A DNA stretch of 64,000 nucleotides from Terfezia claveryi. Lineage: Eukaryota > Ascomycota > Pezizomycetes > Pezizales > Pezizaceae. This document shows, piece after piece, positions 1-58,472 of the stretch. Location: positions 124,001 to 188,000 of the forward strand of contig WHUX01000074.1 of NCBI GenBank assembly GCA_015179025.1, read 5' to 3'. Positions within the stretch are counted from its first letter, which is position 1. Every line of letters begins with the position of its first letter. A program made the position numbers and the translations under genes. Under the pieces are notes generated by a model. It worked only from the letters and a program-made list of their open reading frames with translations. It ran no database searches and was not told the origin of the DNA.

Positions 1-911
1 AAGATAAGAGCCGGATTACTGCTTTTATATATGGCAATGAAGATGGAAGTGAGAAAACTCCTGTATGGTTTATTGGCTGTTATCAAAATCTAAGATATTT
101 TAAGGATATTACTCGAGATAGTTTGGGATGTATGTATAGGTGGAATAGTACAGCTTGGAACAATTCTCTTATTATGCAGGAGTGGTTATTATGGTTTCAA
201 CAGAGAGTTGGTCAAAGGCGGGTAGTTTTACTCTTGGATAATTTCAGTGCGCATGAGTGTGCAGTTGCGGAATTAGAGGATGATACCTGCAGTTCATATT
301 GTCTGGCTACCTTCCAGGACAACATCAAAATATCAGCCGATGAATCAAGGAATTATCCGTGCCTGGAAAGCTCATTATCGTCGGTCTATGATGCGGCATA
401 TCATTCATCATGCAGAGGCTCATCCCAATGAAAATCCATACGAGTCTATCAACCTATTACATGCCATCTGTTGGGGTCTTGATGCATGGAAAACTGGAGT
501 TAAATCTTCAAGTTTGGAACACTGTTTTGCAGTGAGTCAAGTCAAGATTCATGGACCCTTCTTGCCCGACATTAATCCAGAGATTAATGATATGCCTGAA
601 GTTGAGGAGGAAATCCTGGAGTGCATCCGAGTTGTACACCCGGGTCTACAGCTTTCACGCTCTGAATTACAGCATCAATTTTTTCCTTCCCCTACTGAAG
701 TTGTTGAAGATCCGATCACTGATATTGAAGATGCACTCCTGGCAACCTATCTTCCTACTGAGGCCTATGATCCAGTTCATACCGGTATGGACCAGGCTAT
801 TCAGGTATAGACCGAATCTCGCAACGGACCAGAACATATATATATGTCCATTGGCAATCTGGGGTCTGTGCCCAAATGGAACTACTTTTATCGAGGGTGG
901 GATATCCACTG
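1..911 (+). mobile_element. Pogo/Fot1-type DNA transposon, right part
   Basis: The remnant starts before the window and holds a broken transposase (3-810). Its probable right terminus is at 911, where the sequence ends in ATATCCACTG; read inward on the minus strand this gives CAGTGGATATCCCACCCTCG, a CAGTG-type terminus usual for pogo/Fot1 elements. The two bases after it are TG rather than the expected TA target duplication, so the outer edge may be mutated. The left terminus is outside the window. Confidence 0.7.
3..810 (+). pseudogene. Pogo/Fot1-type DDE transposase, 5'-truncated by the window and frameshifted
   Basis: The frame open from base 3 encodes the DDE core, including VLLLDNFSAHE, the strand with the second catalytic Asp. 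Around 280-290 similarity moves to another frame, which continues as AVHIVWLPSRTTSKYQP, then MNQGIIRAWKAHYRR, to a stop at 810. That is the conserved block around the third acidic residue. In this family the block reads QPxDQGII, but here the Asp is Asn (AAT), so the third catalytic residue is lost as well as the frame. The first acidic residue and the CENP-B-like DNA-binding region would lie before the window. The gene cannot make an active transposase. Assignment to DDE_1/pogo is by motif; the subfamily was not determined. Confidence 0.85.
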
Positions 912-7150: not shown

Positions 7151-8682
7151 TTATGACAATAATATCTCCGGCTGGCCATTACTCACGACCACACAGATAT
7201 TACCGCTTCTGTCTACCGTGTACGTTGCCCACCCCAAAGCACTCTTAAATACCGTACCTGGTGCAACATTTGTGTTGAAGCAGTGGGTCCCGCTGGTTCC
7301 ACTTCCGCCATTGGTAGTCAAAACAACAAGCTTTCCGCCAGCACGGCTGAACGCATAGGCATCACCAGTGACATAGAGATGGGAATGGTCGTTGGCACCC
7401 AATCCTCCCACGGCCCTCTTCGCGGCCATGGCCTTTTGGATCCAAGTGTAAAGGTCTCCGTTGGTAGCCCATCCACTTCTCCACATATCCTCGCGGTTGG
7501 CGGGGTCATTGCCGCCGGCGTAACCTTGCTCAGTTCCACCATAAAGGATTGGGATACCACGGGCGAGGAGAGTATAGGCCAGTGCGTTCTTAAGGGCAGT
7601 CCAGTCGGAGTTGACATTGAGGAAACGTACAACGTCGTGGTTGTCGATGAAGGTTCCGAGCAGCTCTGGACGGAGGAATCTGGAACTGACTGCGTTGTGT
7701 TGGTCAACGAGAGTTTGTGGGTTCGCTTTGCGCGCATAGACGTCGGTGATAGAGTAGTACATGGGGAAGTTGAGCAAACTATTCATGTAGCCCTGGTAAG
7801 GGCCGACATAAGCCGGGTCGCCGTTGTAGACCTCACCAATTGTGAAGACACCAGCTGCGTTGGTGAATCCAGGCCAGAAGTCCTTTTCAACGTGCTTGAC
7901 AGTGTCTAAACGGAGACCATCGATGGAGTAGGTGCTGACAAGGTTCTTGATCCAGCTTTGGAAAATACTCCTGACACCGCTGTCCCTGGTGTTGATGTCT
8001 GGGAGATCACCGGAAATACGACAGTATTCGACGTTACCCTGATCGTTAAAGTTAGTGCTGACGCAGTAGTTGTGGAAATAGCTGGAGTTGTTGAAAGGTG
8101 TGAAGTTCTCGAAGGTGTCACGACCCATGTGATTGGTAACGATGTCAACCATGATATACATTCCCTTCGAGTGGGCGGTATTGATGAGAGACTTCAGATC
8201 GTCGGAAGAGCCATAATTGGTATTGAGTTTATAGATATTTTTGGCCCAGTAACCATGGTAACCACCATCGGTGTCTATTAATTAATATTCCTATAATTAG
8301 TACGAAGGTAATTACTTGGAGATTGGAATAGAGACTCACTCTCAACAATTGGTGTAATCCAAACAGCATCAAATCCCATATTCTTAATGTAGTCGAGCTT
8401 TTGTTCCATTCCCTTCCATGTACCACCGCAATAATCTTTTAGGTTCCCACAGGCAGCAGTATCCGCAGTATTGGTTTTGGCAAATCGATCAGTGAGAACC
8501 TATCATCTCATCTCTTGTTAGCCCTCAATGAATTCTTTCATGACCGTCGAGGAATTGGAGAAAAATCGGAAACTGACGAAATAGATGGATCGTGCTTTCC
8601 ATGCCTCGCTATCAGCCGCAAGTGCTGATGGCGTAGTCATAGCCAACGCACAGGCAAATTTGAAAAGTGAAGAGAGACGCAT
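7151..8682 (-). CDS. Secreted GH13 alpha-amylase (Taka-amylase type)
   Basis: Hydrolyses internal alpha-1,4 glucosidic bonds of starch outside the cell. Model: complement(join(7151..8274, 8340..8499, 8578..8682)), 462 residues. Both introns (65 and 78 bp) are GT-AG and restore the reading frame exactly. Residues 1-23 (MRLSSLFKFACALAMTTPSA then LA) are a signal peptide. Conserved GH13 regions: DIVTNH at 132-137; GLRLDTVKH with the nucleophile Asp212; GEVYNGD with the acid/base Glu236; FIDNHD with the transition-state Asp302. The spacings 24 and 66 are close to the 24 and 67 of Taka-amylase A. WITPIVE and GGYHGYW mark the (beta/alpha)8 barrel start, and a C-terminal beta domain ends ICVVVSNGQPEILLS. 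No starch-binding module follows, as in the A. oryzae enzyme. All catalytic residues are present, so it is probably functional. It has no starch-gene neighbour here. Confidence 0.95.
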
Positions 8683-10890: not shown

Positions 10891-11487
10891 CCGCTTCACT
10901 TGAGTTGTTTTTCATATCGTCATAAGTCCATATCTGTTGTTGCCTTCTGGCTCTTGAGTTTTTCTATCGCGGTATACTGTATACAGAGGTCTCTCGATAC
11001 AAGCATACCGGATATAAGCATATATTGGTTACAAGCATACATTCGCCGGTCCCACTAGTAAATAATGCGTTCAGAAGAACCCCTTGGCAGGAGGGTCTTG
11101 GCATGAGACTAAAATAAGCATATTTGGGATACTTATTTTTTTCGCTTAGTCACCAACATATGCTTGTGTCGAGAGAAGCGCTAAACCTCAAATAGGTTCT
11201 TATCGATAAGAAATTACCCCGCAGAATTGCATATCCTGAGAACAATCTTAATGCGATAACAACTGAATCCTTTGATCGAGGGTCGCTCAATCTTGAACGA
11301 ATATTTTCGGCTTAGAACGTCGATTAAGTACAATTTTCAATTTAATCGCTTGATTATTTTAAGATTTATTCGTACTTATTGACTTACGAGGAATTTCCAG
11401 AGATGCTATGGTTTCGGGATTTGGGGAATATCGGCATTGGGATGGGGGTACCATTACAAGACATAGACAAAACGGAAGTCAAAAAAA

Positions 11488-11607
11488 TCTTCAACACCAG
11501 GGATTCCTACGTGGTCACCCACTGCAGTACTAGCCCGGCGATCTAAAGCTTCGATATGGCAGAGCGAACGGGATGCCTCTTTTTCTTCAGTCTATGGTCG
11601 TAAATGT
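11488..11607 (-). rRNA. 5S rRNA-like unit 1 in element A (variant)
   Basis: Read on the minus strand it starts ACATTTACGACCATAG and contains GCATCCCGTTCGCTCTGCC and GTGGGTGACCAC, then GGAATCCCTGGTGTTG, followed at once by seven T. These are the 5' end, helix III, the box C region and the 3' end of fungal 5S rRNA, and the length of 120 nt is right. Helix II pairs CTGAAG with CTTTAG through one wobble. Helix I has one mismatch, so this unit looks more decayed than the other two. It may be a pseudogene. Confidence 0.75.
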
Positions 11608-11786
11608 CAAATGATGATGCACTCTCGATTTTATGTCAGCTATGCACTCTCAAATTAGCTTTATCAGGCTTAATATCGTAGTCTGGTTGGCACAAGCCCC
11701 TCGTACGAAAACCACATAACAAACCGAGTAATCAGCATCCTGATGATTATATACCGTAGCTAAGTGCTGTGAGAAAATAAAAAAAA

Positions 11787-11906
11787 TCTACAACACCAGG
11801 GATTCCCGCATGGTCACCCACTGCAGTACTAGCCTGGCGATCTGAAGCTTAGATATGGCAGAGCGGACGGGATGCCTCGTTTTCTTCAGTCTATGGTCGT
11901 AGATGT
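11787..11906 (-). rRNA. 5S rRNA-like unit 2 in element A
   Basis: Read on the minus strand it starts ACATCTACGACCATAG and ends GGTGTTGTAGAT followed by six T. Helix I pairs ATCTACGAC with GTTGTAGAT without a mismatch (one G-U). Helix II pairs ACTGAAG with CTTCAGA-type sequence, helix III pairs GGCA with TGCC, and the outer helix of the 3' domain pairs CCAGG with CCTGG. Box C (GTGGGTGACCAT) and the terminator T-run are intact. The fold is complete enough for a transcribable 5S gene, but whether it is expressed cannot be told. Confidence 0.8.
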
Positions 11907-12019
11907 CAAATGATGATGCACTCTCGATTTCATGTCACCTGTTCACTGTCAAATTAACTTATTTGGTTTTGTATCAGACCGAGTGATCCGATGATGTATA
12001 CATACTGACTGTGAAAACA

Positions 12020-12349
12020 ATGGCCTCTTCTTCCAAATCTTCGGTTGTCCAACAGCATCAGGCATGGACGGAGCTTGACCGGTTACACCTCAGGGTAGCG
12101 CTCACGCATATTGAAGGATTACTCCCCTTTTCTCTTCAAGCTGAACCTACAGCCAATATCAGGGACCTACAAGATGTTCTACAGCGTGAGGAGAAAAGTA
12201 TTGAGACTCTAGAAATTCAATGCAGGCGTCTGCATGTTCAGCGCAGGATCACTGACTTTCTGGTGCCTCCTCTCCTTGACATTCCCGCTTCCACACCTAC
12301 TACTCTCGTTTGGATATTTCTTGTTTATATGCTGTGCTTGGATTCATAA
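12020..12349 (+). CDS. Unidentified 109-residue ORF in element A
   Basis: The protein starts MASSSKSSVVQQHQAWTELD at an ATG. It has a central heptad-like stretch (IRDLQDVLQREEKSIETLEI) that could form a coiled coil, then QCRRLHVQRRITDFLVPPLL and a hydrophobic C-terminus VWIFLVYMLCLDS. No DDE motif is seen, so it is not a recognisable transposase core, though it might be a leftover terminal piece of one. The copy in element B carries an 11-base deletion near the start and is frameshifted, so there is no sign that the protein is maintained. Confidence 0.35.
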   Translation: MASSSKSSVVQQHQAWTELDRLHLRVALTHIEGLLPFSLQAEPTANIRDLQDVLQREEKSIETLEIQCRRLHVQRRITDFLVPPLLDIPASTPTTLVWIFLVYMLCLDS

Positions 12350-12497
12350 GCCTATTCCACAACATTTCCTAGCGCTAGTTAACTTCATTTTATAGTTACC
12401 TATTTTCTCTTGCTATAAGCATATATTGGTTACAAGCATACTTCTCCCGGTCCGAACGATATGCTTGTATCGAGAGTCCTCTGTAGGCGCCGGGCCT

Positions 12498-32200: not shown

Positions 32201-34245
32201 TAACCTGCGACAGGTCAGTGAACCAGACACATGTTAAAGATATGCTCATATACCTAGGTAGCAGGTTAGGAAAAGGCAAGCAACTATCTAGGAAAAACGT
32301 GTGTGACATTGGAACCGGTGACTCTGCATGCTTATCCTATCTCCCTGGCGTGTTTCTAAGCCCATACGAATGATGTTTGGATGCCTAATTAAATAGCTGG
32401 CACTAAATCTGGGCCAATAAAAGTGCTTACCAGATACGTGGAATGAAGTTGATACCTAGGTCCTTACTTAAGTAGGTATCGGGCCCAGTAACGGGCCGGC
32501 CTAGAGGCATTTTTCCGACTTTTCACATTCTTATCGATATATCGATATGTATACGGAATCTATGCTTGGCTACCTAGTCCGCACTCACGGTGCGATACGT
32601 GTGCGTTGTTGAATACTTATATGATCAATATCATGAGAAAATTCAACCAGAGGTCTCGTGGGAAAGTTTGCTAGATATCTACTGTAGTCTATGCATACGT
32701 ACCCAGAGAGGAAATATCCGCTTCAAGGTACAGGGAACACTGTTTTTGTTTTGAAAGCTATTTAAGTAGCATCATTTTCAGAGCTTGGTATAATATGATT
32801 TGTTAAATACTCCGTGGATAAGCTCCATAGAAGATGTAATATTACGCGCCTCGAGCTGACATCGGCTATTTTGAGCTGTACGTCATGTGCTGAGTCATCT
32901 GGAAGGTAGATAAGTAAATGGTTCTCAATGTGGCAATTTAATTATAACTTGCAGTGTATGTTAATATATTAAAGCTCCATATTAACGAGGCATATGTACT
33001 CTCGTCCACAAACTTCACTAGGCTAGTAATCATTTCCCTTTACAGATGGTCACGTGGGAAGGCTTCTTCAGGGTAACAGTATGGATAGTTGTCGACCATT
33101 GGCAGCTTCAACGAGGCTACCCTAGTCACATAGTTTGCATGTAGTTGGTATCCGGCGGTATCACAGACCCAGATTCCGCCAAAGGTTCGTACGGATTAAA
33201 AAAAGAAGTATGATAGAACCCTAGCCATTAGCAGTCGAAATATATCAGAAAATCTGGTATGTCTCCCACCTAGGAAGGTGAGCTACATTTACCATCGCAT
33301 TCCGAGCACCACTGTTTTCTGCACTACATCTCCGGCATGGGTGTAAGGTTTCCCGGTGAATGGTTACTTAGAAGTCTCCCAATTATTCCGAGTACACTTT
33401 GTATATATTGGCAAGTCCTCCTCTCATGAGGGATTTATCCTGCTTGTACGTAATTGTGCTTCACAAAAGTTAACTATAGGCACCGTTTATAGGTTTTTAA
33501 TACCAATGTAGATAAATAAATCGATTTTCACGAAAGATCCTTACTAACGCCCCACAGCTTCAACTGAGCTAACTCACTCTCGGATTTTACAATAAATCCT
33601 ACTATATACAGCAAAACCATCGTATTGAAGGGGTAGATGGTATTGGCCGATATACTCCCTTGGTAGTACTGGATAAACCTCCAAAACTCACCAAATGACA
33701 TTGTTCTCTTCTGTACGTATGTAAACCACGGCGATGAAATTGTACATATATGGCAGTCTAGTAAATCCCAAAGTACCTCATGCCCAAGCTCCAATCCACT
33801 GGCAGTGGTTGCTCTCTGGGTCTTTGTTCGGGCGAAAGTAGCGACCAAACCACCGACTGAAACCTCCGGAGTGACTAACTAGGTACTAGCAATAAAGCCT
33901 GTATATAGGGCAGAGGCAAGTGACTCTCGGTAATAATTGTCACCATAAAATATAATCGGCGATGAAACTTGTGGAGGTGGTAGTTGTCGGGTCTCCTATG
34001 GCTATAGTAACGATGTTAAACTGCATATTTCGGGCCTACAGTATAAGAACTAATAACTTTCACACTTGTGCCAGTTTTCCATTGTGGGTGGCATGGAATA
34101 TTGTTTTATGAAGTCTGCAACCCTTAAAAGGTTCCCTTCACCTTCGGGGCAACAGGCAACTGTCTCTGCCTACTATGCTGATCTATCTACATGTGGCTGG
34201 GCCAATCGCCGCCCTTGGTATCCGCCAACTGCCCCAATCCTTGTA
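29212..34245. other. 5-kb gene desert
   Basis: No supported gene. T-rich and A-rich runs occur at 29409-29420 and 29599-29610. A minus-strand frame at 33528-33848 is open for 106 codons but has no recognisable motif. Short AT-rich palindromes such as ATCGATATATCGATAT occur near 32530. Confidence 0.45.
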
Positions 34246-34379
34246 CAGAGGACTCTCGATACAAGCATATCGTTCGGACCGGGAGAAGTATGCTTGTAAC
34301 CAATATATGCTTATAGCAAGAGAAAATAGGTAACTATAAAATGAAGTTAACTAGCGCTAGGAAATGTTGTGGAATAGGC

Positions 34380-34698
34380 TTATGAATCCAAGCAGAGCAC
34401 ATAAACAAGAAATATCCAAACGAGAGTAGTAGGTGTGGAAGCGGGAATGTCAAGGAGAGGAGGCACCAGAAAGTCAGTGATCCTGCGCTGAACATGCAGA
34501 CGCCTGCATTGAATTTCTAGAGTCTCAATACTTTTCTCCTCATGCTGTAGAACATCTTGTAGGTCCCTGATATTGGCTGTAGGTTCAGCTTGAAGAGAAA
34601 AGGGGAGTAATCCTTCAATATGCGTGGGCGCTACCCTGAGGTGTAACCGTCCATGCCTGATGCTGTTGGACAACCGAAGATTTGGAAGAAGAGGCCAT
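34380..34698 (-). pseudogene. Frameshifted copy of the element ORF
   Basis: Corresponds to the ORF at 12020-12349 in copy A and keeps LPFSLQAEPTANIRDLQDVL and the C-terminus VWIFLVYVLCLDS. Near 34648 eleven bases present in copy A are missing, so the frame from the ATG at 34698 is broken. Confidence 0.7.
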
Positions 34699-34811
34699 TA
34701 TTTTCACAGTCAGTATGTATACATCATCGGATCACTCGGTCTGATACAAAACCAAATAAGTTAATTTGACAGTGAACAGGTGACATGAAATGGAGAGTGC
34801 ATCATCATTTG

Positions 34812-34931
34812 ACATCTACGACCATAGACTGAAGAAAACGAGGCATCCCGTCCGCTCTGCCATATCTAAGCTTCAGATCGCCAGGCTAGTACTGCAGTGG
34901 GTGACCATGCGGGAATCCCTGGTGTTGTAGA
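34812..34931 (+). rRNA. 5S rRNA-like gene in element B
   Basis: Starts ACATCTACGACCATAGACTG and ends CCCTGGTGTTGTAGA, then seven T (34932-34938), the usual RNA polymerase III stop. The length is 120 nt. Helices I (ATCTACGAC/GTTGTAGAT), II (ACTGAAG/CTTCAGA), III (GGCA/TGCC) and the 3' domain (CCAGG/CCTGG) all pair. Conserved single-stranded blocks CCCGTCCGCTC and GTGGGTGACC are intact, as is the box A region around AAGCTTCAGATCGCC. In filamentous fungi 5S genes are dispersed singly, so this could be a real transcribed gene. Its position inside a TIR element is the unusual part. Confidence 0.82.
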
Positions 34932-35403
34932 TTTTTTTGACTTCCGTTTTGTCTATGTCCACCACGATGATTGTAATGGTACATCCCAATGCCGATATTC
35001 CCCAAATCCCGAAACCATAGCATCTCTATGAAATTCCTCGTAAGTCAATAAGTACGAATAGGGGTATTCAATCTTAAAATAATCAAACGATTAAATTGAA
35101 AATTGTACTTAATCGACGTTATTCGTTCAAGATTGAGCGACCCTCGATTATAGGATTCAGTTGTTATCGCATTAAGATTGTTCTCAGGAGATGCTATTCT
35201 GCAGGGTAATTTCTTATCGATAAGAACCTATTTGTGGTTTAGGTAGCGCTTCTCTCAACACAAGCATATGTATGGTGACTAAGCCAAAAAAATAAGAATA
35301 TTCTTGTATCCAAAATATGCTTATTTACTATGTGGGACCGGCGAATGTATGCTTGTAACCAATATATGCTTATATCCGGTATGCTTGTATCGAGAGACCT
35401 CTG

Positions 35404-37626
35404 TAGATTGTTACAGTCAAGCAACATCGATATCTTGTATGTATACTTATAGACCATTTAGTGTGCAGTCGTTGTCAGTTTGCCACCAAAACCGCACTTT
35501 TGAAAAATTCATGGAACATCAAAAAAAGCAAGGAGAAAGCTCGAGTCTTGGAGTTCTTCCATGAATACTCTCCTCTGATGTCATAAGAAATCTGATCAGA
35601 TTTGAATTGTATAGATAGTTAAGAATGTTTGGTGAGGTAGCTGTCATGTACCTTCCCATACAAATTTGTATGGAAAAGGATTGTACCCAAGATTTCACCA
35701 ACTTGCAGCAGTTCTAGTCAGTTGTGCAGTGGAGAAGGGGAAAAAAAATTAGCTGAGGTGTATATTGTAGATGATGTTTATATGGCTCTAGGAGCACTAA
35801 ACAATCGGGGGCGTTGACGAACTTGACAAACTTCCTCAAAGTGGTGGTTTTCGACAGCCGGACAGTAAGAGTACGGAACTAGCGTTGGAGGTTGTCTTGA
35901 CAGAAGAGGACACCTTGACTGTACAATACATTAATCCGTACCTGACCCAAGCCCTCTTGACAGCACCATTTGGGGGAGCGAGATTATACGAACCCTACCT
36001 GTTGAGAGGGCAGCCAACTACGCCAGCATCCCCCGGTCATGGAGGATTTGAAGTGACACCCAGTAAATCCATTTTTGTGATGTCATCCTCAAAGGCTCTA
36101 TTGTCATCTGTTTGTAGGATATCCACAGTACAATTTCAATATAAGAATATTGTTGGGTGGTGGGGTAATATTCTTATAATTCCTATACCAAATATGAGGG
36201 TAACCGCGAGCCCAATACACGGAGAAAGAAAAGCAAAGCGACATAGAGGAAGAACTTGGTGCAGGAGAAACAGCGGAACTAGGTACAGGCAAAATAACAG
36301 CCGCGGGGGCAGCGGCAGAGGTGAAAAAGGCAGTAATTTGGGTTTGTTTACCCGTCCATTGGCTCTCATTCTTATATCAAATATATTCTAATAATCAAAT
36401 ATTCTTATTCGAGTGTATGCCTTATAGTCACCATTACTAGGGAGATTGTATTCTTGAGCTTCTCAATGCCTCACCCGTTGGAGCGCCCTGTCATGACCTT
36501 AGGTCGATCGCGGGTATAAGACTTTTTTTTTAAAAAAAAAAAAAAAAAAAAACATGGCTTTAACACTTTTTTGAGTGGAGAGATCTGTACAGTGCGTGGG
36601 GGAAAGTTACTAGGCCACATTCTGCATAATGGGGTTTTTGGTCTAATATTCTTTCAATATGATTCTGGAAGCACTTAATAACAATTGAGTGCGTTGACGA
36701 ATTTCAACGAATTTTCCAAAAGTTAGTGGTTTTGGTTGTAAAACTGAACGACGGCCGAACACACTAATGGCACGGAAATATATAATACAAGTATATGTTC
36801 TGTGTTGCCCGTAGGCGCTGATGCTCACAAGCATATATACTAAGTAGTTATGTAAGTATTCTCTACCCAACTGGGAGTAAAGTTTCCAAGGAATAACCAT
36901 AAATCTATCTATATCTGTAAACTAAATTAGTAGTCTTGGGAAGCCTGATCAGGAATGTGATACTACATTATAAGTTATTAACTTTCACCAAAATATCCAA
37001 ATATAGAGGGCATTAACTAATATTGAAATATCACTCTTTGGAGGTATTATATAAAAAGGAAGAATATTACCAGCACATTTATGAACTCGCTTCCTGAGAT
37101 GCTCACCAAAGAGACCTTGCATTGTGGCAGCACTGAGCACGCTCCTAGGAGCATCGACTGTGTATGTTGGCCTTTCAACTAACCTGAATAAATTTCAATC
37201 CCACTTGACCAAGGATCACAACTGTGTATCGTGTGTATAAATCCCTATGTCAACATCAATTTAGTTCAATTCGATTCACTTTTCAGTCGCTTCAGCAACC
37301 GCATAATCTAGTCAATCAAATATAACTTGGATATAACCTCATCCTCTTGTCTGCTTGAATTTTCCTGACAGCACCAGCCTCACTATCGCCCCAAAACGTA
37401 ACCCAGCTGACAGAACCAGAAACAATAACAAATATCTACTCAAATACCGAATCTGTGAAAACATAATGCCATGAAGTAGCATTAACGACCAGCTCAGAGG
37501 AATAAGGTGCAAAACGAAATCAAGAAACAGTGAAGAGAAGCGGATCGGGTATGTCTACATGTATATCTAGCCAATCACAAGTCTCCCAGGCGCCAAATGC
37601 ATTCACCCGCTGTTACCTCCTCTGGA
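35404..37626. other. Intergenic with repeat remnants
   Basis: No supported gene. A plus-strand frame from 35885 looks weakly protein-like for about 75 codons (TLTVQYINPYLTQALL) but has no family. A T9/A21 run lies at 36523-36552. Related terminal-like sequences are listed separately. Confidence 0.35.
35457..36765. repeat. Diverged inverted terminal-like repeats
   Basis: At 35457 the plus strand reads GTGTGCAGTCGTTGTCAGTT, then CCACCAAAACCGCACTTTTG. At 36690-36765 the minus strand reads GTGTTCGGCCGTCGTTCAGT, then CAACCAAAACCACTAACTTT. A third, diverged copy in the orientation of the right end lies at 35815-35870 (GCGTTGACGAACTTGACAAA). They may be termini of one or two nested DNA transposons. 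Alignment is by eye. Confidence 0.4.
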
Positions 37627-54644: not shown

Positions 54645-54829
54645 CCGATCCCCAACGAGGTACACTGCACCTACTGCGAAGGAAGCAACCACGGAGCGGA
54701 GGACTGCTACCGCCGCGCCAACGACGTGAAATACGGAAATAAGGACAAGGAACGCAGAAACAGAAGCCGTGGAAACTGGAGGCACTTTCCTACAGCCCGC
54801 AAGGGAAATCGCCGCCTCGATGAATACTA
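54645..54829 (+). pseudogene. LINE ORF1 C-terminus with CCHC knuckle
   Basis: The frame reads VHCTYCEGSNHGAEDCYRR, a C-x2-C-x4-H-x4-C nucleic-acid-binding knuckle (54666-54710). A basic tail (KERRNRSRGNWRHF) follows, with a TAG at 54827-54829. It overlaps the region before ORF2, as in other two-ORF LINEs. Confidence 0.65.
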
Positions 54830-54882
54830 GGCCCACAAGCGCCCAGAAGAGAGGGGGATCATATAGCAAGAGGAAAGAGGGG

Positions 54883-57800
54883 GGGAGAGGCCGAGTTTTA
54901 GTTTCTTATTGTAACGTCAATAACAGCGGGATCAACACCCATGCCTTCCTGGAAAGCAATAAGGAAGCAGACATAGTTTTCATAGGAGAACTGGTAATCT
55001 ACAACACTTCAGAAGGAGCACGTACAACCAACCACCCGAGTTTTAGACGCATCTCCACTCTTTACAGCCATAGCAGAATCGCAGGTTATGTAGCCAACAG
55101 ACACTATAAAGCCTCCTGCCGGAATGTTAGTCACAACACTAACCAGATAAAGCTCGGCTCAATCACAGTCACGGGTATCTACTTTAACGGGAAAGATTCA
55201 ACTACAGTACTCGAGTCAGAACTCAATCAAATACCCATTGGCACCCGCTCACTAATAATGGGGGACTTCAACGCCCACCATCCGTCATGGGGGGGCCAGA
55301 CAACAAACCGCGGGGTTACACTACAGGAGTGGTCGTCCACCAACCACCTCACTCAGATGGTCCACTACCAAGCACATTCATTCCAGCGAGGTACCAGCAA
55401 AAGTCTATTAGACTTGGTTTTCAAAGGGACGGAAATCTCTTGGAAAGAGTCACCACTCCACCTCTCATGGATCGGATCGGACCACGCAGTTATATCAGGA
55501 TACATTAATGCCACCATACCAGAAACACAGCAATACACAACGATTAATTGGACTTGGTGGCAGGAGTACATAGAAAGAAAAGGTACATCAGAAGGCACAC
55601 CACTCTACTTTGGAGAAGCCTATCAAGTCCTCTAAGAACTCATTCAAGAACATCTAATCCATAAATCGGCATCCCATAGAAGTAAGAAGTGGTGGGACGT
55701 GGAAGTACAGACACAGATGGAAAAAACAAGAGAAGTAGGAAAAGAAGGAGGAGAAGGGTACCAAGAGGAAAGCCGCAAGTTCAAAAAGCTAATTAGGAGG
55801 AAAAAACGAGCGTGCTAGAAGAAATTCTTAGAAGAGCAAGGTTAAAGACACCCATGGGACATCGCAAGGGTAGTAAGAGACCCATTCAGGTTTACTCCAA
55901 CAATGGGAGTCCTAATCGACAAAGACAAAAAGTCTCTCTCGACCGACCAGGAAAAGTTACAAGCTTTCCAGAAGCACCATCTCGTAACAAAAGAACACTC
56001 TACCACACCTCCTTCTACACCTGTAATCGCTGAGTCCCCGATACATTACTGAACGGCAGACCAACAAACAATCCTAAAAGTATTACAAGCTCTAAGCAGG
56101 ACTTCTAACTCCTCGGCCGCAGGACCAGACCTCATCTCTTACTGCCTGATCAAGATGATCAAGGACACCCCCTAGGCATGGCTTTAATCAACGATATAGC
56201 CAGAGTAGCAGAAGGCAAAGTATCTCCCCCACTACCATAGAGAAACCTCTCTATGATAATGATCCCAAAGCCAGGGAAGAATCACTCGGAGGTAAAAGGA
56301 TAGAGGCTAATAGTCCTTTCCAATACGATAGGCAAGATCCCGGAGAAGCTAATAGCTGACGAGCTCCAACATACAACAAACCTCTTCCATCCTCTACAAT
56401 ATGGCTCACGCAAAGGCAGATCAGCCATCGACGCAATGATGCTTACCATCTCAACAGCTGAAAAGGCCATTCAAGATAAGAAGAAAGCCACGCTACTAGG
56501 AAAAGACATAGTTTCGGCATTCAATAATATAAGAACCAACAAACTTCTGGACATCCTAGTTAAAAACAACATCCCACACAGGACGGTACAGTTCATCAAC
56601 AGGTTCCTACAACCTCGATCCTTTCCAGTGCTCTGGGATGGCCGTATTAGAGGAGAAAGACAGATGGACCAAGGGGCCCTCCAGGGCAGTCCACTTTCAC
56701 CAGTCTTCTGGCTTATATACATAGGCAACACCCTCAACAGAGCTACACTTGCATACCCAAGCTCTCCAGTGGGCCACCCCAGAAGTACCAGAGCAAATAC
56801 GACATTGGCAAGGATCCCAAAGCCGACACCCTATAGCATCCAGCTTTTCTCATATGTTGATGATATAAACCCTCTGATCACAAGCAGTCTCAGCACTAGA
56901 GCACATAACGAGCTAGTCAAGCAAGTCACCAATATACTAGACTCAGTAGCAAAAGAGGATGAACTCCAATGGGATCTAAACAAGGAATCCAGGCTCGACT
57001 TCCACAACAAAGGCAAGATCGGTTACTGCAAGACTCTAGGAATTACGGTAGCCAGTAACTTCTCATGGAAAAGCCATATCAAACAAAGAACACTCAAGGC
57101 GTCTAGCATGTTAAAGGTACTAACCAGTTTAGGCAACCAGAATGGAGGGTTAAGCCCAACGAGCCTCAGATCCCTTTACACAGGATGTATACGAAGCATC
57201 TTTACATGGGGAGCGGAGCTCTGGAATTCACAACATCAAGGACTCCTGCAACCTATGCAACGCCTCGAGTACCAAGCCCTACGGAAGATTACAGGAGGTT
57301 ACCATAGCTCAAGCCATCAAGCGCTAGGCTGGATCACAAATGTCGAACCCCTCCAAGACAAGATAGAGGATATGAAGCGCTGCTGGGTAGCAAGAGCAAT
57401 TAGAACAGGGGACCAGCAGGTAAGAGCCTATATCGAGGACGACACATCATGGCTGGCCAGCAGGAACCTACACCGGACAAGGACTCCAATATCAGAAGCC
57501 TTCCATCTAAGCGGGGCAGACCCCACAGAACTATCATGGGGCAACAGGGAGGACACAACACCCTTCCCACTGATCTACAGGGTAATTATAGACCCCAAAT
57601 CCGAGCTGTCCAAGCACCTAGGTCATTGGGCAGCAGGCATAGGATCGATACGAGAAGAAGGATGGAGAGTCTGTTACACCGATGGTACGGGATGAAAAGG
57701 GGTGGTAGCTAGTGGAATCCACAGTGAGGATCAAACAGGAGGCACCCCTAAGGACTACGGAGGCTATCTGGGAGACCATGCCACAGTAGCAGATGGCGAA

Positions 57801-58472
57801 TTATTCGCGATGCAACTGGCATTACTCAACGAAGACTCACCCATGATATCGATCCTCTCGGACTCCCAGGCCGCGATCCAGGCAGTCATCAATATGAGCT
57901 CAGGCTCCCCACCCAGATCCGGGATCGAAATAGGCATCAAGTCCCTTATCACCACGAACCCGTAGAGGGACCTCTAGATTTCGTGGGTCAGAGGCCATTT
58001 AGGCATCCCAGGCAACGAAAAGGCGGACCGGCTCGCTAACTTACAGTCCCACCTGGGGGAATTCACAGGCCAGGAACAGACAACAACAGAAGGAGGGCTA
58101 CGCGCAGCCTCCAAGGCGAGACGAAAAGAAGCAAGAACAAAGGTGGGCTTTGGGGTAAGAAGGGTGGAGTGGAATCGACAAGCCCTGTCAGCCTACACTT
58201 GGCTAAGAACTAACAGAGGCCCGCAACGGAGCTGGCTTCACCATATCGGCAAGGCGGAATCAGCAGCATGCACATGCGGTCACCCCACTGAGACCGGAGA
58301 ACATATCGTCTTCGATTGCCCATGCTTCAACCGGATACGCAGCGGTTTATTGGGGGGGAGGAGGAGCTGGGAGGAGCTCGACGAACCGGATTGGAGGAAA
58401 GAAGGGGAAGGAGAAGAGAGATACGAAGCTACAGAGGCCTTCTTCAACCTCCTATACCATGAGCTTATGTAG
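54883..58472 (+). pseudogene. LINE ORF2: endonuclease, reverse transcriptase, RNase H
   Basis: The APE-type endonuclease (about 54900-55510) shows MGDFNAHHPSWGG and WIGSDHAVISG. The reverse transcriptase (about 56200-57050) shows GSRKGRSAIDAMM, GKDIVSAFNNI, QGALQGSPLSPVFW and the catalytic YVDD in LFSYVDDINPL. RNase H (about 57680-58050) shows VCYTDGTG, the DGELFAMQLAL and SDSQAAIQAV blocks, and WVRGHLGIPGNEKADRLAN. The C-terminal zinc-binding motif is CTCGHPTETGEHIVFDCPCF. The frame is interrupted at 55633, 55816, 55843, 56050, 56173, 56238, 56301, 57693, 57963 and 57975, and shifted once near 56175. Most stops stand where a Trp or Gln codon is expected. Confidence 0.9.

Follow-up and report, generated by a model that had tools for sequence, protein, structure and literature searches.

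In filamentous fungi, 5S rRNA genes are scattered through the genome, and no vehicle that makes additional 5S copies in these organisms has, to our knowledge, been described. Several mobile systems resemble in part the element described here from the truffle Terfezia claveryi. Non-autonomous pogo elements of the Fot/Tigger type and MITEs share with it TA duplications, TIRs and derivation by internal deletion; pogo TIRs start with CAG, as do those of the truffle element, one of whose relatives shares its TIRs and encodes the HTH_Tnp_Tc5 and DDE_1 domains. What sets the truffle element apart is that its transposase leader holds one to three 5S rRNA units. SINEs derived from 5S rRNA (SINE3 type) are also 5S-derived mobile sequences, and they move through RNA with the 5S as their head, whereas the truffle 5S lies mid-element, within TIRs. 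Pack-MULE and Pack-TYPE elements are, like this one, non-autonomous TIR elements with host gene sequence inside, but their cargo consists of gene fragments, while that of the truffle element is a whole non-coding rRNA gene.

Other parallels come from published sources. The Cassandra TRIM of plants is a mobile element with a conserved 5S sequence (PMC7215508); as described there, it is an LTR retroelement with its 5S-like part in the LTRs, in contrast to the TIRs, TA duplications and whole internal 5S of the truffle DNA element. Dada targets small RNA genes with duplications of 6-7 bp, and fish have Dada-5S, a DNA transposon linked to 5S genes (PMC3706591, PMC8869645); Dada inserts into 5S genes, whereas the truffle TIR element carries one. 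In Neurospora, to go by the title of Margolin 1998 (cited in PMC3778014), a fungal 5S and a transposable element meet at one place, the element lying inside a 5S pseudogene, while in the truffle the 5S lies within the element. It has also been reported that 18-83% of the 5S sequences of filamentous fungi are pseudogenes, in line with birth-and-death evolution (PMC10462631). No title among the literature matches listed names a DNA transposon with a 5S gene as cargo, a weak absence given that most subscription papers fell outside the search.

The truffle genome contains TIR elements flanked by TA that hold 5S units within shared element DNA, together with related element-free sites and a pogo relative that lacks the 5S. 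We propose, with a probability of roughly 0.8, that most of the truffle 5S genes were probably dispersed by transposition of this TA-inserted TIR element with its complete 5S, a pogo-type transposase likely having acted on it in trans.

Two 5S-carrying elements in the window

The window, the whole stretch of 64,000 nucleotides that was analysed, contains two such elements, W1 and W2, which a sequence-only reading had picked out by their matching termini and TA flanks. Both have exact 24-nt TIRs, with TA outside all four ends. The termini read CAGAGG[A/T]CTCTCGATACAAGCATA and are of two kinds, A-end and T-end; all four window ends (4/4) match the pattern exactly, against a mean of 0 in shuffled sequence (100 shuffles). 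The features are as follows.

10982..10983, no strand: TA target duplication left of W1 (from the sequence; related element-free sites in the genome)
10984..12483, minus strand (that of its 5S units): 5S-carrying element W1, 1500 bp, two 5S units
10984..11007, plus strand: W1 TIR, T-end (pattern match, 0 mismatches)
11486..11605, minus strand: W1 5S-2, degenerate second unit (RF00001 75.8 bits; 91.7% identical to 5S-1)
11785..11904, minus strand: W1 5S-1 (RF00001 85.8 bits; commonest 120-nt sequence, then a T run)
12020..12349, plus strand: W1 109-codon ORF, pogo transposase start fused to its C-terminal part (from translation)
12460..12483, minus strand: W1 TIR, A-end (pattern match, 0 mismatches)
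12484..12485, no strand: TA target duplication right of W1 (from the sequence)
34244..34245, no strand: TA target duplication left of W2 (from the sequence)
34246..35403, plus strand: 5S-carrying element W2, 1158 bp, one 5S unit
34246..34269, plus strand: W2 TIR, A-end (exact pattern match)
34814..34933, plus strand: W2 5S unit (RF00001 85.8 bits, model 1-120; same 120 nt as W1 5S-1, then a T run)
35380..35403, minus strand: W2 TIR, T-end (exact pattern match)
35404..35405, no strand: TA target duplication right of W2 (from the sequence)

The 120-nt units, previously taken for 5S from their landmarks, are recognised as such by Rfam, the three window matches scoring 85.8, 85.8 and 75.8 bits against an RF00001 gathering cut-off of 38 bits, with the W2 unit above it across the whole model, 1-120. 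The two copies that had been placed at 11787-11906 and 34812-34931 are thus indeed 5S, but each position was 2 nt off (11785-11904 and 34814-34933). The W1 5S-1 sequence recurs, by exact identity, in 17 further copies in the genome. In elements of the W1/W2 type the 5S does not form the 5′ end but lies about 580 bp inward of the A-end. This position contradicts a reading of the element as a SINE of 5S origin that moved via RNA and merely resembles a TIR element; such SINEs do exist, but here the 5S sits that far inside TIRs flanked by TA, and transposase remnants lie within the elements, so that we regard the idea as scarcely credible. Elsewhere in the window, an amylase frame at 7151-8281 is 100% identical to a Terfezia claveryi protein over 99% of its length, with a Tirmania nivea protein following at 86%, and the frames at 54730-58472 resemble, by translation only, an endonuclease/reverse transcriptase non-LTR element.

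Genome-wide copies and their insertion sites

The Terfezia claveryi assembly (72.6 Mb, 794 contigs) was searched for both termini and 5S sequence. With up to 3 mismatches allowed, the TIR pattern gave 372 matches genome-wide, versus 0 for the pattern read backwards, and an Rfam search returned at least 47 5S matches. The census patterns recovered 107 5S heads (100 listed), 92 3′ ends and 89 sites where the element flank adjoins the 5S start, as well as 110 A-ends (100 listed) and 57 T-ends; merging the matches listed gives 163 units that show at least one of these signals, with one (on C9) counted twice. Defining a full 5S unit as a head core and a 3′ end in register, with at most 3 mismatches each, there are at least 46 in the 72.6 Mb, and the internal flank of the element adjoins 39 of these 46 among the matches listed. 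Among the same matches, an A-end lies 350-1400 bp upstream of 33 of the 39 flank-bearing full units, a T-end lies within 7 kb of 19, and 17 have both. Counted from the termini, 52 of the 100 A-ends listed have a 5S 400-2600 bp inward; a T-end follows within 12 kb in 32 of these 100 (from a total of 110), with a 5S present in 20 and absent in 12.

The idea that the 5S unit belongs with the element holds for 39 of the 46 full units and fails for seven, which lie outside the element among the matches listed (two on C71, two on C223, and one each on C88, C612 and C784). The commonest 120-nt 5S, that of window 5S-1, has 18 exact copies genome-wide and 31 at up to 3 mismatches. The element flank is present at all 18 exact copies, in an element or a fragment of one (at C190:332526 a fragment of about 180 nt only), and these copies occupy 17 places, because those on C297 and at C412:185836 represent one duplicated place. 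All seven outside copies differ from the commonest sequence, the closest by 2 positions. As most of the full-length 5S units found sit inside the element or its fragments, the element is likely to have scattered the 5S genes. Near a contig end on C71 (L032, C71:680-2969), three 5S units lie outside the element and are unlike the commonest sequence; they may mark the border of a cluster that the assembly lacks.

Both ends are present in 19 of the 5S elements, including one (L046) whose 5S is interrupted, and no two of the 19 come from the same set of segmental duplicates. The flanking dinucleotides are TA/TA in 17, TA/AA in one and CA/TA in one, and the outer flanks differ, with a single weak cross match of 75% over 80 nt. 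Among two-armed copies the upstream homology ends some 525-600 bp from the 5S, at the TIR, and the termini mark the boundary of the element, not a stretch of some larger unrelated repeat; in truncated copies (L016, L017, L034 and L043 among them) it ends short of the TIR distance. Moreover, related element-free sites matching the joined flanks were found for three 5S elements. L027 is matched by an element-free site at L013 at 97% over 200 nt, gap-free through TA. L019 is matched by a site on C437 at 88%, gap-free at the junction, yet this site reads CA. W1 is matched at 81-83% by sites on C24, C701 and C76, gap-free through TA at C76 and with a 5-base gap beside TA at C24 and C701. The joined-flank search of the genome used six elements as queries and scored the best 40 of 990 candidates, among which W2, L011 and L012 returned their own flanks only, and L013 its own and one-sided matches only.

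Some of the copies were multiplied by other means. On C61, C110, C168 and C786 the flanks agree at 194-200 of 197-200 aligned bases, marking segmental duplicates, and these four near-identical copies were discarded as proof of recent jumps since they share their flanks; upstream of L022 and L025, 2.4 kb of sequence is identical, and C297/C412 is likewise a segmental duplicate. A spread mainly by segmental duplication or recombination in place of transposition would account for such matching flanks, but is made very improbable by the different outer flanks of the 19 two-ended elements, 17 of them TA/TA, and by the element-free sites for three elements. Taken together, the Rfam matches and the TIR/TA anatomy at many loci support the earlier description of a pogo-type TIR element with a 5S gene, and it has been confirmed that the observation is real and larger in extent than first described. 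Added to it are the two or three 5S units of many copies and a second repeat that cuts 5S units.

Pogo relatives and a second repeat

A locus on another contig (C11:165741-167833) has both kinds of end of the 5S element, with one mismatch, and TA on either side, without a 5S. Between its TIRs lie the Pfam domain HTH_Tnp_Tc5 (PF03221) and a stretch of DDE_1 (PF03184). The assignment to pogo made from the sequence alone is borne out by these domains of the TIR-sharing C11 locus, by the TA duplication and the TIRs at both ends, and by the element-free sites; within the 5S elements themselves, the pogo transposase is present as remnants only. The C-terminal part of the W1 ORF is common to C11 and to C323, a second transposase-bearing relative. 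Alignment of W1, W2 and L012 with C11 and C323 places the 5S segment in the transposase leader, about 40 bp of which it replaces. Transposase residues 2-27 (in the C11 frame) are kept in the 5S elements, e.g., at window positions 12005-12082 in W1, and this N-terminus is fused to the C-terminal part, giving the ORF of 109 codons in W1 and open frames of 81-162 codons in many 5S elements. Because the start and the end of a C11-type transposase are kept, the 5S element is considered a non-autonomous deletion derivative. The transposase of C11 is itself broken, with ATA versus the ATG of the 5S elements and a frame that stops after 246 codons, and that of C323 is interrupted by stops; an intact copy accompanied by these TIRs was not encountered in the genome, which also has other DDE_1 loci with open frames. 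In the sequence of events that we favor, an ancestral element would have lost most of its transposase gene, a segment with the 5S, measuring about 0.47 kb in W2, would have been gained once, in the transposase leader, and the copies would have spread by transposition, some of them later by segmental duplication.

Long 5S elements were considered as autonomous copies and rejected, the transposase on C379 being of the PIF-Harbinger type and read as nested. That element (L024 and L054, C379:304898-309575) measures 4.7 kb and contains, between its two 5S units, the PIF-Harbinger transposase (PF13359), probably a nested element, and a Myb/SANT-like frame below its cut-off. In the part of the frames submitted to Pfam, no pogo transposase was found in the long elements of C297 and C412. 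An element of 5.9 kb (L046 and L053, C412:129086-135026) has an interrupted 5S and encodes, in one frame, an OTT_1508-like deaminase domain (PF14441), perhaps other cargo. At the left edge of the window (6-528, with L055), pieces of DDE_1 transposase mark a related pogo copy, whose A-end-like TIR lies at C712:123121, on the contig of the window.

Among the matches listed, 54 merged units are 5S heads without a 3′ part in register, and 27 of these 54 join AGTCTCCCACCGCAGCACGCA after GCGGGAA or similar letters, at about nt 102. The junction itself (GCGGGAA followed by AGTCTCCCACCGCAG) has 73 matches, of which 30 adjoin a merged 5S unit and 43 do not, and a second type of tail follows the same 5S position (about nt 102) in other copies. 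The repeat interrupts 5S copies both inside the TIR element and elsewhere. On C415 (L040/L059, C415:9248-14848) the 3′ part of the 5S resumes 5.5 kb on, with the 7-bp GCGGGAA on either side; C789 (L041/L060) is a duplicate of this place, and the 7-bp duplication comes from this single case in which both junctions are visible. Heads whose 3′ part is foreign were also considered as a 5S-headed SINE, which was ruled out by the same junction occurring in different 5S surroundings. These varied surroundings, and the 5S remainder on C415 beyond a 7-bp duplication, identify the second repeat as an insertion into 5S. In its behavior it appears Dada-like, resembling Dada more than the TIR element does. 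The presence in this genome of a repeat that does cut 5S genes raises the idea that the TIR transposon, too, targets 5S genes, the 5S being target and not cargo. This is contradicted by the joined outer flanks, which match sites without 5S at the junction, and by the position of the 5S between a single A-end and a single T-end, surrounded by element DNA that the copies share; we give the idea almost no credence.

Uniformity and possible use of the 5S units

Copies of the element vary less in their first 5S unit than in their arm, which mostly does not hold for second units. Across 21 aligned elements (21 of the 27 loci, fetched or in the window, with a full 5S in element flank), 14/2520 cells are off the majority in the 5S versus 215/11907 in the arm (Fisher p 6e-7), in sets drawn from a 5S-score search that favors good 5S, and by per-site tests that count related copies as independent. 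In the 14 elements with further units, the corresponding counts are 4/1371 for 5S-1 and 41/1322 for the later unit, with the later units of L011 and L030 trimmed, and 126/6343 cells are off the majority in the arm of 13 such elements. The contrast between 5S-1 and later units is flattered by L018, which has three 5S units and for which the degenerate third was used, though its second matches the commonest sequence at 99.2% identity. A less biased sample, found by TIR and flank, has an exact 41-nt core in 32 of 47 5S-1 units versus 1 of 18 second units, where about 47% would be expected at the rate of the arm (binomial p 0.003). In five element copies with an interrupted 5S, the first 93 nt are as uniform, with 0 or 1 mismatch each, and uniformity therefore need not mean present ribosomal use; that of 5S-1 is compatible alike with selection for host use, with selection for the element and with gene conversion.

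The 5S might be kept for the element, as an internal promoter for polymerase III, and not for the ribosome. Such a promoter should not need the 3′ strand of helix I, yet all 18 identical copies retain this strand, and in those inspected a T run follows. The equal uniformity of the interrupted heads in five elements agrees with a promoter role, for which Cassandra offers a plant precedent (PMC7215508, PMC10853983); the truffle element, however, is without retroelement features, and on balance we hold such a role to be unlikely.

Slightly less improbable, though still doubtful, is that the 5S is a passenger or an old pseudogene, ribosomal 5S being made from the outside copies or from an unassembled array. 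The seven full copies outside the element among the matches listed, the three units near the contig end on C71 and the mostly degenerate later units all fit this idea; set against it are the 18 identical element copies, from which the outside copies stand at least 2 positions apart, and the greater uniformity of 5S-1 relative to the arm. Regarding the promoter region, a TATA-like box, which 5S genes in Neurospora need, may lie near -29; at this position the outside copy on C88 has TTATAATA and most element copies have CATAAAAT or CATGAAAT.

Because the A-end-nearest 5S units have the commonest 5S sequence and are more uniform than the surrounding DNA, we infer that they serve the host: they would be transcribed by RNA polymerase III and their product would enter the ribosome. 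The element would be a likely supplier of ribosomal 5S. The fuller proposal, that working 5S genes are themselves transposon cargo, taken up and multiplied by a pogo-derived element, kept as the ribosome depends on them and set in number and position by transposition, is held more tentatively, at a little under even odds. A DNA element that carries 5S, together with its element-free sites and a decaying second 5S as a control within the same copy, makes the question of how 5S genes spread testable. If the element copies are indeed working genes, the truffle would owe an essential ribosomal RNA to a transposon.
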